Source: Anaerolineales bacterium (GTDB lineage Bacteria > Chloroflexota > Anaerolineae > Anaerolineales > Villigracilaceae). Taken from it: a stretch of 34,698 nucleotides of DNA. The stretch's first letter is position 1. Every line of letters starts with the position of its first letter. The stretch is from contig JAVBXV010000066.1 in the NCBI GenBank assembly GCA_030824405.1, positions 1-34,698 of the forward strand, given 5' to 3'. The position numbers and the translations under genes were made by a program. Below, in pieces: positions 2,086 to 13,098 of this stretch. Under the pieces are notes generated by a model, which searched no databases, was not told the DNA's origin, and saw only the letters and a list, made by a program, of their open reading frames with translations.

Positions 2086-3096
2086 ATGCGCGTTACTAAA
2101 GAATCCCTCATTCGCATTGCCAAAGAGACCACGCAGGAACGGGTGTATAACGACCCCGAGATCATCGCCGCCTATCTGACGGGTTCGCTGTTGAACGCGG
2201 AGCCCATGCTCGGCGGCACAGCCGATATTGACATTGTGTTTGTCTACAAGAACCTGCCAGCCAAAACTCGTGAGTTCGTCAAATTGACGCCTGATTTTCA
2301 CCTGGATATCAGCCGCCGCACAAAGGATGAATTCAAATCGCCGCGAGAACTGCGCGCCGATCCCTGGCTCGGCTATGAAATGTACGCGCCTGTGCTGTTG
2401 TATGAACGCGAAAAATTCTTCGATTTCGTACAAGCCAGCCTGCGGGCAGGCTTTGACTTTGAACAGCCGCCGCTCATGCTTCAACGCTGCCGCAAACTCC
2501 TCTCTCATGGCCGCGGCATCTGGATGGATATCTCTGAGTTGGATCACCCTGCGGGGCCAAAAGAAATAAAAAAATATATGAAAGCCCTGTTCCACGCGGT
2601 CAATGCTGTGGCAGAGATCAGCGGCCCGCCCATTCAGGAACGCAGGCTGTTGCTTGAATTCCCTGCGCGAGCCGAAGCCGTGCAAAGAACTGGCATGGTG
2701 GCGGGCGCATATGGTCTGCTTGGCGCAAACAATGTGGACGCAGAAAAAATAAAAGGCTGGGTTTCAGATTGGAAATCAGCTTTCGGCCTTGCAACCGCAC
2801 ATTCCAATGTGGATATGCGTATTCACCCCGCACGATTGAACTATTACGAGAAAGCCATCAAGGCCATGCTCGAAGGTGACACACCAGTAGCGGCACTTTG
2901 GCCGCTCGTACACACATGGACCATGTGTGCCGAAGTTCTTGAGAACGATCATTACCAATTCTGGGAAAGCGCCATGAAAGAGTTGGGGCTGTTGGGCGCA
3001 GGCTTTGAAGAACGTGTGCAGGGGTTGGATCATTTCATTGATGAGATCGAAATTCTGCTGGAACAGATTGCCTCTGAAAATGGGGTCACAGAGTAG
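2086..3096 (+). CDS. Nucleotidyltransferase-fold protein
   Basis: The N-terminal domain carries the nucleotidyltransferase signature G-S at about residues 32-33 followed by D-I-D about a dozen residues later (TGSLLNAEP then GTADIDIVFV), with a third possible acidic residue in FHLDISRR. This is the polymerase-beta-like catalytic triad that transfers a nucleotide to a small molecule, protein or RNA. The rest (about residues 110-336) is largely helical and not recognised. AAGGAAAG precedes the ATG and the gap to the kinase gene is 9 nt, so the pair probably forms an operon. The substrate is unknown: aminoglycoside-type, protein AMPylation and nucleotide-salvage roles are all possible. Its link to a nucleoside kinase is suggestive only. 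Confidence 0.75.
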   Translation: MRVTKESLIRIAKETTQERVYNDPEIIAAYLTGSLLNAEPMLGGTADIDIVFVYKNLPAKTREFVKLTPDFHLDISRRTKDEFKSPRELRADPWLGYEMYAPVLLYEREKFFDFVQASLRAGFDFEQPPLMLQRCRKLLSHGRGIWMDISELDHPAGPKEIKKYMKALFHAVNAVAEISGPPIQERRLLLEFPARAEAVQRTGMVAGAYGLLGANNVDAEKIKGWVSDWKSAFGLATAHSNVDMRIHPARLNYYEKAIKAMLEGDTPVAALWPLVHTWTMCAEVLENDHYQFWESAMKELGLLGAGFEERVQGLDHFIDEIEILLEQIASENGVTE

Positions 3097-3153
3097 TTTT
3101 TCGTATAAGCGTACCTGGTAAAGAAGAAGGCGGTAAGAATTCTCCGATATAGG

Positions 3154-3163
3154 CCATATATGG
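3154..3163. repeat. Second copy of CCATATATGG
   Basis: The same 10-bp palindrome found at 3306-3315 occurs here, also followed by GGGG. The two copies bracket the DnaA-box array at 3207-3277. A related GCATATGG occurs near 3477. Confidence 0.5.
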
Positions 3164-3206
3164 GGGGCATTGTCTAGTCAACATATTGAGGGCAAACGAC
3201 CTGCCC

Positions 3207-3277
3207 TGTGGATAACTAGGGTAAAACTGTGGATAAACACTTCCATCTGTGGACAATAGGCACATTTGTTCGGATAA
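3207..3277 (-). repeat. Phased array of four DnaA boxes
   Basis: Four 9-mers in the same orientation begin at 3207, 3228, 3248 and 3269, spaced 21, 20 and 21 bp, about two helical turns. The first two are perfect copies of the DnaA consensus (TTATCCACA on the minus strand), the third has one mismatch and the fourth two. Same-face spacing would let DnaA molecules contact each other. Confidence 0.75.
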
Positions 3278-3293
3278 TCATCGGAAAGCTCAA

Positions 3294-3327
3294 AAAACGC
3301 GACCCCCATATATGGGGGTCGCGTTTT
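3294..3327. repeat. 34-bp perfect palindrome with CCATATATGG core
   Basis: The arms 3294-3310 and 3311-3327 are exact reverse complements with no spacer. The centre is GACCCCCATATATGGGGGTC, flanked by CGCG and A/T runs. As RNA it could form a stem of about 15 bp with a short loop and U-runs on either strand, so it may be a bidirectional terminator shielding the origin. As DNA it could be a dyad protein site. The core CCATATATGG recurs at 3154-3163, also followed by a G run. Confidence 0.7.
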
Positions 3328-3504
3328 GAATAAACCGATATGTGGAAAGCAGGGTTTGAGCGCCTGTTTTGGGGAAAATTTGTGGAGAGTTTGTCCGGGA
3401 TCTTTCCACAGCGTGGCGAATGCATGAACACAGAGCCAGACAGTAGGTTTGGGGTGAAGCGCATTGAGTCCCCCTGCATATGGTGGTTAATTATTTTTGT
3501 ACAC

Positions 3505-3535
3505 ATATCCACAGGCCCTACTAATATTACTATTC
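3505..3535 (+). other. DnaA box + GC tract + DnaA-trio-like triplets (basal unwinding element)
   Basis: ATATCCACA (3505-3513, one mismatch from TTATCCACA) is followed by GGCC (3514-3517) and then CTA CTA ATA TTA CTA TTC (3518-3535). The complement reads 3'-GAT GAT TAT AAT GAT-5', which largely fits the DnaA-trio rule (3'-[G/A]AT-5'). The trios lie on the 3' side of TTATCCACA, the known orientation. AT-rich DNA continues downstream, as expected of a duplex unwinding element. Confidence 0.65.
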
Positions 3536-3557
3536 CATAACTATCCTTTAACTATAC

Positions 3558-3586
3558 TTGAATTGATTAAGTGAATCCTGTACAAT
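3558..3586 (+). promoter_or_regulatory. Promoter for spoVS (TTGAAT-17-TACAAT)
   Basis: TTGAAT at 3558-3563 and TACAAT at 3581-3586 are separated by 17 bp, a good sigma70-type promoter. Start of RNA would be near 3593, leaving a leader of about 42 nt with GGGAGG before the ATG at 3635. The promoter sits in the AT-rich part of the putative origin. Confidence 0.6.
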
Positions 3587-3634
3587 CCATTTAAGTACAT
3601 CACACCCCATCTTAGCCAACCTTGGGAGGTTGCC

Positions 3635-3913
3635 ATGGATATGATCAAAGTTTCAGCCAACTCCCGTACTTCTGCAGTTGCTGGTGCAATTGCAGGTGTT
3701 ATTAGAGAACACAAACGGGCAGAAGTTCAAGCCATTGGAGCAGGCGCAGTGAACCAGGCCGTTAAGGCTTTGGTACTTGCGACCAGTTATTTGAAAAATG
3801 ACGGCATCAACGTGGTCTGCGTGCCTGAATTTGTGGATGTTGAGATCATGGATGCGAACAACGAAAACCCCGCTGTTCGTACCGCCATTCGGCTTGTGAT
3901 CGAACCTAGATAG
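3635..3913 (+). CDS. spoVS: Stage V sporulation protein S homologue
   Basis: A 92-residue protein matching the SpoVS family along its length: IKVSANSRTSAVAGAIAGVIRE, then VQAIGAGAVNQAVKALVLATSYL, then a C-terminal strand-rich part ending VRTAIRLVIEP. SpoVS is a small cytoplasmic protein related to the Alba nucleic-acid-binding fold and is found in many non-sporulating bacteria as well as sporulators; in Bacillus it affects septation and sporulation. No other sporulation gene is visible here, so a sporulation role should not be assumed. GGGAGG 7 nt upstream fixes the start at 3635 rather than the second ATG two codons on. It is monocistronic, with its own promoter and terminator, and lies directly beside the putative origin. 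Confidence 0.95.
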   Translation: MDMIKVSANSRTSAVAGAIAGVIREHKRAEVQAIGAGAVNQAVKALVLATSYLKNDGINVVCVPEFVDVEIMDANNENPAVRTAIRLVIEPR

Positions 3914-8783: not shown

Positions 8784-9581
8784 CTACTGGGGAATTTCGC
8801 CAGCCAGTTCCTTGTCGATCAACTGCTGGAAACTTGTCAGCGGCTGAGCGCCCACAATCGCCAATCCATTGACGAAGAAAGTCGGTGTGGATTGCACCCC
8901 GAGGTCGAGGGCAAAATTCATATCTTCCTGAATGAACGCATCGTGGCTGCCATCGGTGAGACAGGCGGTGAAGGTCTCCACGTCCAGGCCCAGATCGGTG
9001 GCGTATTGGATGTAGGTCGCTTCATCGAGAGTATCACTGCTGAACAGCTTGGCGTGATAATCCCAATAGGCATCCTGATCATTGGCGCACAGAGATGCAA
9101 TTGCAGAAGGCATCGCGGCGGGGTGAATTTGTGTCAACGGCAGGTTGCGGTACACGAAACGGATCTGGCCCGGGTAGGCATCCAACAAGGCCTGATAGGT
9201 TTCATCATGGAAGCGGCGGCAGAACGGGCACTGGAAATCGCTAAACTCCACAATGGTGATCGGAGCATCATCCGGCCCAATGCTTGGATATCCTTCTGTG
9301 GGGACATCGTAACGGGTATACGGAGATTGAGTAGGTTGAGGCGCTTCAACAACCGCGCCCGAAGGCTGGTTTGCGGCTGGCGCTGCGGCAGGTGCCGCCA
9401 CTGTGACAATGGTGTCACGTCCCCAGGCTACATAGCCAACGAGGATGCCGACTGCAAAGGCCAGCACGACCAACACAGAGTAAAAGTGACTTTTCTTGAA
9501 GGTTATGGAATCATCGTCGATGGTCTCGATGACTTCCTCTTCTTCGATAATAGGGGTGGATTTTTTAGTTTTTGTAGGCAT
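8784..9581 (-). CDS. Membrane-anchored DsbA-family thiol-disulfide oxidoreductase
   Basis: An extracytoplasmic disulfide oxidoreductase or isomerase. The order is: acidic cytoplasmic N-terminus (IIEEEEVIETIDDD), one membrane anchor at about residues 34-53, an Ala/Pro-rich spacer (about 61-90), then a thioredoxin fold of DsbA type (Thioredoxin_4, BdbD-like). The active site is C118-P-F-C121 in FSDFQCPFCRRFHDE, and the cis-Pro loop is STPTFFVNG. An inserted helical domain contains one further Cys pair region (SLCAND ... TACLTD), which may form a structural disulfide. The start is the ATG at 9581; the in-frame TTG at 9587 is less likely because TATAAT lies 7 nt before the ATG. No DsbB/VKOR partner is next to it. 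Confidence 0.9.
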   Translation of the reverse strand: MPTKTKKSTPIIEEEEVIETIDDDSITFKKSHFYSVLVVLAFAVGILVGYVAWGRDTIVTVAAPAAAPAANQPSGAVVEAPQPTQSPYTRYDVPTEGYPSIGPDDAPITIVEFSDFQCPFCRRFHDETYQALLDAYPGQIRFVYRNLPLTQIHPAAMPSAIASLCANDQDAYWDYHAKLFSSDTLDEATYIQYATDLGLDVETFTACLTDGSHDAFIQEDMNFALDLGVQSTPTFFVNGLAIVGAQPLTSFQQLIDKELAGEIPQ

Positions 9582-9588
9582 GGGCAAA

Positions 9589-9594
9589 ATTATA
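9589..9594 (-). promoter_or_regulatory. -10 element TATAAT, 7 nt before ATG (leaderless start)
   Basis: Minus-strand TATAAT is followed by TTTGCCC and the ATG of the DsbA-like gene. No Shine-Dalgarno sequence fits in the gap, so the transcript should start at or next to the start codon. Confidence 0.55.
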
Positions 9595-9683
9595 GCCTTT
9601 CTAGAGGATTTTGGTAGAGTACATAAGTAGGAAAGCCGTGCATCGTTTCATTCTTTTGGGCGTATATCTTTTCGGAGGATCAA

Positions 9684-9911
9684 ATGACAACCGAAAAAAG
9701 ATCACATACACCCTGGTTCCTGTGGCCGTTCGTTGCGTTGTGGAAATTGCTCGCAACCATTGTTGAGTTGACTGGCCGATTCGTGGCCATGCTGATCGGC
9801 ATCGTATTTATCGTCATCGGCATCATCGTCAGTTTGACCATTGTCGGCGCCATCGTTGGGATTCCGCTGGCCATCATCGGCTTGCTGTTGTTTTTACGCG
9901 GCATCTTTTAG
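9684..9911 (+). CDS. Small hydrophobic membrane protein (75 aa)
   Basis: GGAGG lies 5-6 nt before the ATG, strong evidence that this short frame is translated. The protein has a basic N-terminus (MTTEKRSHTP), a Trp-rich amphipathic stretch (WFLWPFVALWKLL) and two long hydrophobic segments at about 33-54 and 56-73 rich in Ile, Val and Gly. No enzyme motif is present. Such proteins are often assembly or stress factors of the membrane, but no function can be assigned. A same-length frame on the opposite strand is a shadow. A structured terminator follows. Confidence 0.75.
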   Translation: MTTEKRSHTPWFLWPFVALWKLLATIVELTGRFVAMLIGIVFIVIGIIVSLTIVGAIVGIPLAIIGLLLFLRGIF

Positions 9912-11874: not shown

Positions 11875-13098
11875 TTAATCCAGTTTTCGAATGGCGGGGT
11901 GTAATAATGGCAGCGCGCAGAATACGGTGGAGAGCACCCCTGCGCCAATGAACACAGTGGTCACGCCGATGCTGTCTATGAGCCAGCCAGTGAGCGCAAA
12001 CCCAAGCGGCAATAGAACGAACGAGCCAAGCATGTCCACACTGGAAACACGTCCCATTTTTTCGGGCGGGACAAGTTCCTGAAGCAGGTTCATCCAGATC
12101 AGCCCGACAATTTCCAAGGCGGCGCCGTTAAATAATGCAGCAATCACCAACACGGCAAATGGAACTTTGAATCCGAAGAGTCCCAGCCCGACGCCAGCGA
12201 TGATACTGGCAATATAAAAAGTAAGTCCACGATGGCGGTATTTGGAGAAGGTTCCCATCACTAGGCTTGCAATGGCGAATCCAATTGGAAAAATGGAATA
12301 GATCAAGCCAAGCATTTTTTCATCACCGCCCAGTTGTTCCTTGATGAGAAAAGGCATGCCCACACTATACGGCCCAGACAGGGTAATGTTCGTGAATGCA
12401 AAAACGAGGATGCTTACCCAAAGAATGGGCGAGGCAAAGATGGTCTGAAACCCTTCGCGCAGGTCTGCGAAAAAATGCTTGAGTGTGAGATCTGTTTCTT
12501 GATGGCGAACAGGCGCGGGCAGGGTCAGAAGCGGAATTACCGTCAACGCGCCGATGAAGAAGGAGATGGCGTTCAATCCAAATGCAACGCCGGTGCCGCC
12601 CAACCCTGCTGCGAGACCGCCGATGGCGGGGCCAGCCACACGCCCGAATTGCATGCTCAAACTGTTGATCGAGTTTGCGCTGGGCAGGTCTTCTTCGGGA
12701 ATGATCTGTTGAATGATGGCGTTGTAGGCGGGCAGAAAAAACGCATCTGCAAAACCGAAGCAGATCGCGATGATGTAAATTCCCCATAGTTCAAGCCGAT
12801 CTGTGAATGCGAGCCATGAACCGATTGCCATGATCAGGCAGCGCGCCGCATCTGAACTGAAAAGTAAAATGCCGCGCGGCAATCTATCCACGGCCACGCC
12901 GCCGATCAGCGCGAAGATAACGGTGGGCAGCATGCTGAAAAAAAGAACCGTGCCCATTTTTGTGGCGGAGCCTGTTTTTTCAAGCACCCACCAGGCCATG
13001 GCGATCTGAAAAAGAAAATCGCCAACGCGTGAAAGGGTTTGCCCAACCAGAAGCACGGCGAATTGGCGGTGTTTTAATGCGCGGAAGGATGAATTCAT
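11875..13098 (-). CDS. MFS transporter, DHA3/EntS-like efflux type
   Basis: A 12-helix major facilitator permease. The N-terminus FRALKHRQFAVLLVGQTLSRVGDFLFQIAMAWWVLEKTGSA and the loop GGVAVDRLPRGILLFSSDAARC are typical of the MFS_3/DHA3 family (macrolide or siderophore exporters), which work as proton-driven efflux pumps. A second family feature is the long central PEEDLPSANSINSLSMQFGRVAGPAIGG. The 407 residues match the usual length. The ATG at 13098 is the natural start; only a weak ribosome-binding site (AGGTT) precedes it. The gene stands alone on the minus strand. The substrate is not predictable. Confidence 0.92.
   Translation of the reverse strand: MNSSFRALKHRQFAVLLVGQTLSRVGDFLFQIAMAWWVLEKTGSATKMGTVLFFSMLPTVIFALIGGVAVDRLPRGILLFSSDAARCLIMAIGSWLAFTDRLELWGIYIIAICFGFADAFFLPAYNAIIQQIIPEEDLPSANSINSLSMQFGRVAGPAIGGLAAGLGGTGVAFGLNAISFFIGALTVIPLLTLPAPVRHQETDLTLKHFFADLREGFQTIFASPILWVSILVFAFTNITLSGPYSVGMPFLIKEQLGGDEKMLGLIYSIFPIGFAIASLVMGTFSKYRHRGLTFYIASIIAGVGLGLFGFKVPFAVLVIAALFNGAALEIVGLIWMNLLQELVPPEKMGRVSSVDMLGSFVLLPLGFALTGWLIDSIGVTTVFIGAGVLSTVFCALPLLHPAIRKLD

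Follow-up and report, generated by a model that had tools for sequence, protein, structure and literature searches.

A predicted chromosomal replication origin with a basal unwinding system upstream of spoVS and apart from dnaA in an Anaerolineales bacterium

The closest described counterpart of the locus presented here is the basal unwinding system (BUS) of bacterial origins, which the relevant sections of PMC8287927 delimit as a DnaA box with at most two mismatches to TTATCCACA, an adjacent, less conserved box with at most four, a GC-rich spacer of 0-16 bp (about 4 bp on average) and a run of at least three consecutive 3'-NAN-5' trios. Predicted origins have been used for other Chloroflexi, according to the part of PMC4070872 concerned. 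For the genus studied here, our literature searches found no published origin (DoriC, which lay outside these searches, may hold predictions), and the portions of PMC12102498 and PMC7203096 that combine oriC with a Chloroflexota or Anaerolineae term contain nothing on such an origin.

The window, i.e. the whole stretch of 34.7 kb that was analysed, starts at the first base of contig C401 of a 3.84-Mb draft genome. An earlier note on this DNA had described a DnaA box, ATATCCACA, followed by GGCC, six trios and AT-rich DNA to about position 3600, and all of these are present as described. They lie upstream of spoVS in a gap of 538 bp, whose left neighbour is an ORF of 336 aa (2086-3096) without a Pfam match. 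The features of this region, of which the three reverse boxes, the partner box, the palindromes and the naming of spoVS go beyond the earlier note, are as follows:

3097-3634, no strand: proposed oriC region, between the 336-aa ORF and spoVS; a conserved footprint in a 30-locus alignment
3153-3164, no strand: palindrome P1, GCCATATATGGG, one mismatch to CCCATATATGGG
3207-3215, minus strand: DnaA box TTATCCACA
3228-3236, minus strand: DnaA box TTATCCACA, 21 bp from the 3207 box
3248-3256, minus strand: DnaA box TTGTCCACA, 20 bp from the 3228 box
3294-3327, no strand: palindrome P2, with its core CCCATATATGGG at 3305-3316, inside an inverted repeat with 15-bp arms
3497-3505, plus strand: degenerate partner box TTGTACACA, two mismatches to TTATCCACA, overlapping the 3505 box by one base
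3505-3513, plus strand: DnaA box ATATCCACA, one mismatch to TTATCCACA, beside the trios
3514-3517, plus strand: GC-rich spacer GGCC, 4 bp
3518-3535, plus strand: six consecutive DnaA-trios CTA CTA ATA TTA CTA TTC, reading 3'-NAN-5' on the bottom strand
3518-3610, no strand: AT-rich DNA unwinding element, 70% AT
3558-3586, plus strand: promoter-like TTGAAT-17-TACAAT, presumably for spoVS, within the unwinding element; largely conserved in the 30-locus alignment
3635-3913, plus strand: spoVS (PF04232, E 1.8e-31), encoding an Alba-superfamily protein; a neighbour of the proposed origin that is conserved in the lineage

Each component of a BUS, as defined in those sections of PMC8287927, has its counterpart in this list: the main box differs from TTATCCACA at one position and the adjacent box at two, the spacer of 4 bp has about the average length, and the trios are six in number. 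The partner box of the window is weaker and 1 bp closer than those of its relatives, in which the forward boxes mostly abut. The AT content of 70% at 3518-3610 compares with 50% for the whole window, and the 90-mer starting at 3518 ranks in the top 0.4%. To the left, the reverse boxes at 3207, 3228 and 3248 are helically phased, each two helical turns from the next, and a DnaA-box cluster and an AT-rich unwinding element are thus found together in intergenic DNA, as is expected of an oriC. A promoter scan taken alone did not rise above chance (two promoters found, with a shuffle mean of 1.5). The placement of SpoVS in the Alba superfamily follows PMC11621453, in the part that deals with this protein, and a relative with a solved structure is 2eh1. 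Two deoxynucleoside kinase genes (PF01712; 1432-2076 and 7923-8588 of the window) flank the proposed origin within about 5 kb.

Conservation was assessed in 49 genomes of the same genus (the host genome and 48 others); the 43 with a spoVS match were examined and the six without one were left out. Upstream of spoVS the element was present in all 43 when the box was allowed two mismatches and in 39 when it was allowed one, with the IKVS codon of spoVS always 125-172 bp downstream of it. Runs of four trios predominate (34 loci), followed by runs of five (6) and six (3). At 40 of these loci the box is directly adjoined by a partner with no more than one mismatch, the window being among the three exceptions, and the triple of reverse boxes, spaced by 21 and 20 bp, is kept at 43/43. 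Besides the boxes and the palindrome, the conserved blocks of the 30-locus alignment comprise the motif CCCTACTA.TATTAC and the hexamers of the promoter-like sequence that precedes spoVS. A scan of a contig database for the trio pattern returned 61 loci, partly from the same species as the sampled genomes. A DnaA-type box stands just 5' of the trios at 49 of them, and at 46 of these 49 a spoVS-like start follows at a distance of 115-254 nt; the remaining 12 are boxless and all belong, by their record titles, to other phyla. Among named records, similar loci come chiefly from MAGs of Anaerolineales or Chloroflexi, including one with the label Candidatus Villigracilaceae.

Other families were searched as well. 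None of 19 spoVS-upstream regions from them (371-1500 bp each; in a few, the assumed start was displaced by as much as about 45 bases) contains TT[ATG]TCCACA or TGTGGA[TAC]AA; at one further locus (L312 of G065, also from another family) the start of spoVS was unrecognisable. A stringent genome-wide pattern of the element gave a single match, in one of 32 other-family genomes, compared with nine matches in total for the reversed control. This lone match is chance-like, and the pattern may miss diverged boxes. Linkage to spoVS as a rule for the whole order was rejected, since none of these 19 regions from other families has the element upstream of this gene, and the spoVS address appears, as far as tested, to be specific to this group.

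Strand asymmetry was measured in three relatives (G020, G025 and G031) only, because the draft host genome is 85% complete and split into 458 contigs, and all fits assume a terminus opposite the origin. Raw skew was mixed near the locus, with the wrong sign in places; with 20 stretches per genome, the permutation fractions were 0.003, 0.160 and 0.093 for the best origin anywhere and 0.003, 0.076 and 0.014 for an origin fixed at spoVS. As this was only suggestive, we used coding-corrected third-position GC skew in 40 stretches of 20 kb per genome. For G020 the best-fit origin then fell at 540-550 kb, the locus being at 556 kb; for G025, with the locus at 505 kb, it fell in several ranges from 390 to 1100 kb, and for G031, with the locus at 1229 kb, in either 1240-1310 or 1450-1470 kb. 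The coefficient at the locus was reached by 1, 16 and 17 of 1000 permutations in G020, G025 and G031, respectively; at dnaA, the coefficients were 0.004, -0.025 and 0.005. In all three genomes the locus lies just outside the band of residuals within 2% of the best, the nearest in-band position being 6 kb (G020), 65 kb (G025) or 11 kb (G031) away, and further in-band ranges occur up to about 600 kb (G025) and about 240 kb (G031) from it. For G025, placing the origin opposite dnaA gives a slightly lower residual (851.3) than placing it at the locus (856.1). The skew signal is weak; it is compatible with an origin at or near the spoVS locus and not at dnaA. In G020, the GC-skew check proposed in the earlier note puts the switch no more than 20 kb from the locus; in G025 and G031 its result is loosely compatible with the locus. 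Cumulative GC skew within the window, lowest near 2-2.5 kb, was set aside as evidence, as just 3 kb of the window lie on the left side.

A parS site near oriC is usual, though not obligatory. Six parS-like sites with at most two mismatches were found in the 2.4 Mb sampled from the three relatives, G020 having three, G025 two and G031 one, and each lies 14-30 kb from the locus; the 34.7 kb of the window contain none at up to three mismatches. These sites are at L231 15455-16858, L254 10607-11312 and L269 about 361, and those of L231 and L254 lie in or beside genes that by eye resemble ABC-transporter or membrane proteins.

An adjacent dnaA gene, which is common at oriC and not obligatory either, is absent here, in agreement with what had been noted from the letters of the window. 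The dnaA of the host genome is on a different contig, C152, and the distance between dnaA and spoVS amounts to 0.93 Mb in G020, 1.84 Mb in G025 (the short way round) and, assuming closure of its 4.74-Mb contig, 1.56 Mb in G031. The dnaA locus was itself considered as the origin and rejected, since none of 34 dnaA loci (31 of the same genus) has an unwinding element and the skew coefficient there is about zero or negative. At one dnaA locus (G016:C2:870456-871762) the gene appears as two matches that overlap, which may reflect a frameshift or a sequencing error.

Among the alternatives to an origin, the one that survives best is that the boxes and trios only regulate spoVS through DnaA, the true origin being elsewhere. 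It could draw on the conserved promoter-like sequence directly after the trios. However, the 19 spoVS genes of other families do without such boxes upstream, and the geometry of tandem boxes and trios, the skew and the parS-like sites all indicate an origin; we regard mere regulation of spoVS as very unlikely.

Another candidate for the origin is a denser cluster of DnaA boxes. Exact copies of TTATCCACA number 75 in the host genome (G000), 46 in G020, 61 in G025 and 70 in G031, while the reversed pattern, taken as a control, gives 23, 16, 10 and 18, respectively. In the three relatives, a dense cluster with all or nearly all of its boxes on one strand is located 237-355 kb from spoVS:

Second cluster, by genome: host contig C192:8780-9026; G020 at 792.7 kb; G025 at 150.4 kb; G031 at 1559.6 kb
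Second cluster, by locus: L313 (G000:C192:7000-9938) at about 1781-2027, nine boxes; L240 at 12608-12862, eight boxes; L279 at 9481-9757, ten boxes (each with at most one mismatch)

That this cluster (C192:8780-9026 in the host) is the real origin would be suggested by its density (in each of the three scanned copies, 8-10 boxes with no more than one mismatch fit into about 250-280 bp, at most one of them on the opposite strand) and by the fit with 20 stretches, which was slightly better than at spoVS in G025 (473.9 vs 485.6) and G031 (402.1 vs 418.5). With 40 stretches, however, the residuals at the cluster are worse than at spoVS in each relative (651.6 vs 587.8 in G020, 932.5 vs 856.1 in G025 and 815.5 vs 774.5 in G031). 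Moreover, the cluster has an AT content of only 51-54% and extends into the end of a coding gene, ten loci of the cluster and its neighbour gene contain neither trios nor the element, and the parS-like sites are near spoVS instead. An origin at the cluster is, in our view, even less probable than the regulation of spoVS alone.

The cluster looks, from its sequence, like a titration site of the datA type, i.e. a dense group of DnaA boxes outside oriC without an unwinding element. On C192, nine boxes with at most one mismatch share one strand within about 250 bp of 51% AT, spaced for the most part by about 21 bp or by a multiple of about 11 bp. The C192 and G020 clusters occupy the same place, between two flanking genes that resemble rmlD and neuB. 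A small gene adjoins the cluster in G020; of 16 matches to it (L282-L297; two further weak ones, L298 and L299, were left out), nine have boxes and seven do not, the host copy being one of the seven and located on C316, apart from the contig of the host cluster. The likeness to Escherichia coli datA, as far as the relevant part of PMC4585315 describes it, consists in a dense DnaA-box cluster away from oriC; unlike datA, C192 has its nine boxes on one strand, within one mismatch and at the spacings given above.

A single DnaA box means little in this DNA, because the window as a whole shows no enrichment of box-like 9-mers (73 matches to TTWTNCACA with at most one mismatch, against a shuffle mean of 67). 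The element as a whole was therefore scanned for by a pattern that follows the published architecture and is stricter on box and trios: a box with at most one mismatch, 0-16 bp, and at least four NTN trios, at least three of them [CT]TA. It matched the window once, at 3505, and none of 60 Markov copies. In G020, G025 and G031 (120 stretches of 20 kb, 2.4 Mb) it matched the spoVS-upstream locus alone, once per genome; three of the stretches span this locus by design, and the other 117 gave no match, so that the motif cluster did not recur elsewhere in this sample, a check which the earlier note had also proposed. Neither this check nor that of GC skew, both run in relatives, refuted the earlier reading. 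The combination of box and trios is not chance: single DnaA boxes are common enough, as the 75 exact copies in the host genome attest, but a fortuitous assembly of a box and AT-rich triplets is hardly conceivable given the empty randomised windows and the retention of the element at all 43 loci of the genus.

The order of the elements, the fact that they are conserved and rare, the fit of skew in relatives and the nearby parS-like sites lead us to consider that 3097-3634 is very probably the chromosomal oriC, with 3497-3535 as its basal unwinding system. The conservation and rarity of the element, together with the skew and parS-like sites of the relatives, also support the earlier reading of this site as the place where the chromosome origin melts. 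In the mechanism that we propose, DnaA-ATP would bind both the reverse boxes (3207-3256) and the forward pair (3497-3513). A DnaA filament starting at the 3505 box would cross GGCC onto the bottom-strand trios (3518-3535), the AT-rich DNA would melt up to about 3610, and the helicase would be loaded there. As the spoVS promoter probably lies within the melted stretch, transcription may help the opening. The locus would place the origin, with testable sequence landmarks, for a species-rich genus (48 relatives searched), and it could serve as an anchor for growth-rate estimates from metagenome coverage.

The proposed oriC contains one more conserved component, the palindrome. As DNA, P2 folds with -19.6 kcal/mol (z -8.0). 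The motif C[CA]CCATATNTGG is found at the central position, that of P2, in 36 of the 43 same-genus oriC loci and anywhere in the region in 37, and every one of the 43 has one to four sites within two mismatches of CCCATATATGGG, whereas 0.02 would be expected per 620 bp. A second location is upstream of dnaA: CCATAT[AG]TGG lies 296-363 bp upstream of the assigned dnaA start at 28 of 30 dnaA loci of the genus (30 of the 44 dnaA matches were read). In the host genome, CCCATATNTGGGG occurs at four places, namely oriC, upstream of dnaA, 5' of a gene similar to those for glutamine synthetase, and inside an ORF. G025 has it twice at oriC, and also upstream of dnaA and in two further places. The form CCCATATATGGGG is present in seven of eight genomes searched, at 11 places (three at oriC, seven 332-369 bp upstream of dnaA and one other); its reversed control is absent from the same eight. 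Palindrome sites were also seen at L001 about 1154 and, about 300-360 bp upstream of dnaA, at L138-L145 and L315-L336. The palindrome is a real conserved element. Its interpretation as a terminator was rejected, as there is no terminator call in 3050-3700; nor is there a T-run behind it in the host dnaA copy or in the dnaA consensus.

The restriction to these two locations is not strict. In G020, a looser form of the palindrome gives 23 strand hits, mostly pairs around arrays of repeats of about 11 bp, which argues against exclusivity. These arrays belong to small dispersed elements, in which two CCCATAT-type palindromes 105-145 bp apart flank direct repeats of about 11 bp (TCAACACATG or CAGTGTGTAGG); L158, L172, L175 and L178 are of type A, and L169 and L181 of type B. 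The single extra palindrome site of G004 looks similar to them. Outside the family, the palindrome 13-mer is present in 12 of 32 genomes. Three other-family genomes with a known dnaA differ from one another, with the palindrome 387 bp upstream of the gene in G060, elsewhere in G069 and absent in G073; a further such genome, G057, has it at a distance of 2.4 kb from spoVS.

The two palindromes of the proposed oriC (3153 and 3305) do not represent DnaA sites; they probably bind a putative second factor, which would act upstream of dnaA as well. Whether this factor is a dedicated regulator at CCCATATATGGG(G), with sites nearly restricted to oriC (1-4 copies) and to a position about 350 bp upstream of dnaA in most genomes, and whether it ties firing to DnaA supply, seems to us evenly balanced between yes and no. 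If so, one switch would couple origin firing and DnaA supply at loci about a megabase apart. It is speculation that the origin-linked Alba-type SpoVS has a role at the origin, although it might be named as one candidate participant in the control of initiation. E. coli SeqA (GATC) and mycobacterial MtrA act at both oriC and dnaA. The present palindrome resembles them in that one class of sites is common to the origin and the dnaA promoter; CCCATATATGGG is unlike the known SeqA or MtrA motifs. A palindrome shared by oriC and the dnaA-upstream region makes the timing of initiation in these bacteria directly testable.

The mechanism proposed here is a known one; what is new, as far as literature searches show, is the address, unlinked to dnaA and linked to spoVS, and the palindrome of oriC and dnaA. 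Compared with the BUS of the Bacillus subtilis oriC (boxes 6/7 and DnaA-trios, in the sections of PMC8287927 devoted to it), the locus is alike in its box pair, its short GC-rich spacer and its trios in the same orientation, followed by AT-rich DNA. Unlike the B. subtilis oriC, it adjoins spoVS and not dnaA, the partner box of the window is degenerate, and 34 of the 43 loci of the genus have four trios only. Its separation from dnaA is shared with the E. coli oriC, for which the same sections of PMC8287927 give a relatively weak BUS score, whereas the trio motif is strong here. The locus would add an origin that is not linked to dnaA and has its basal unwinding system intact.
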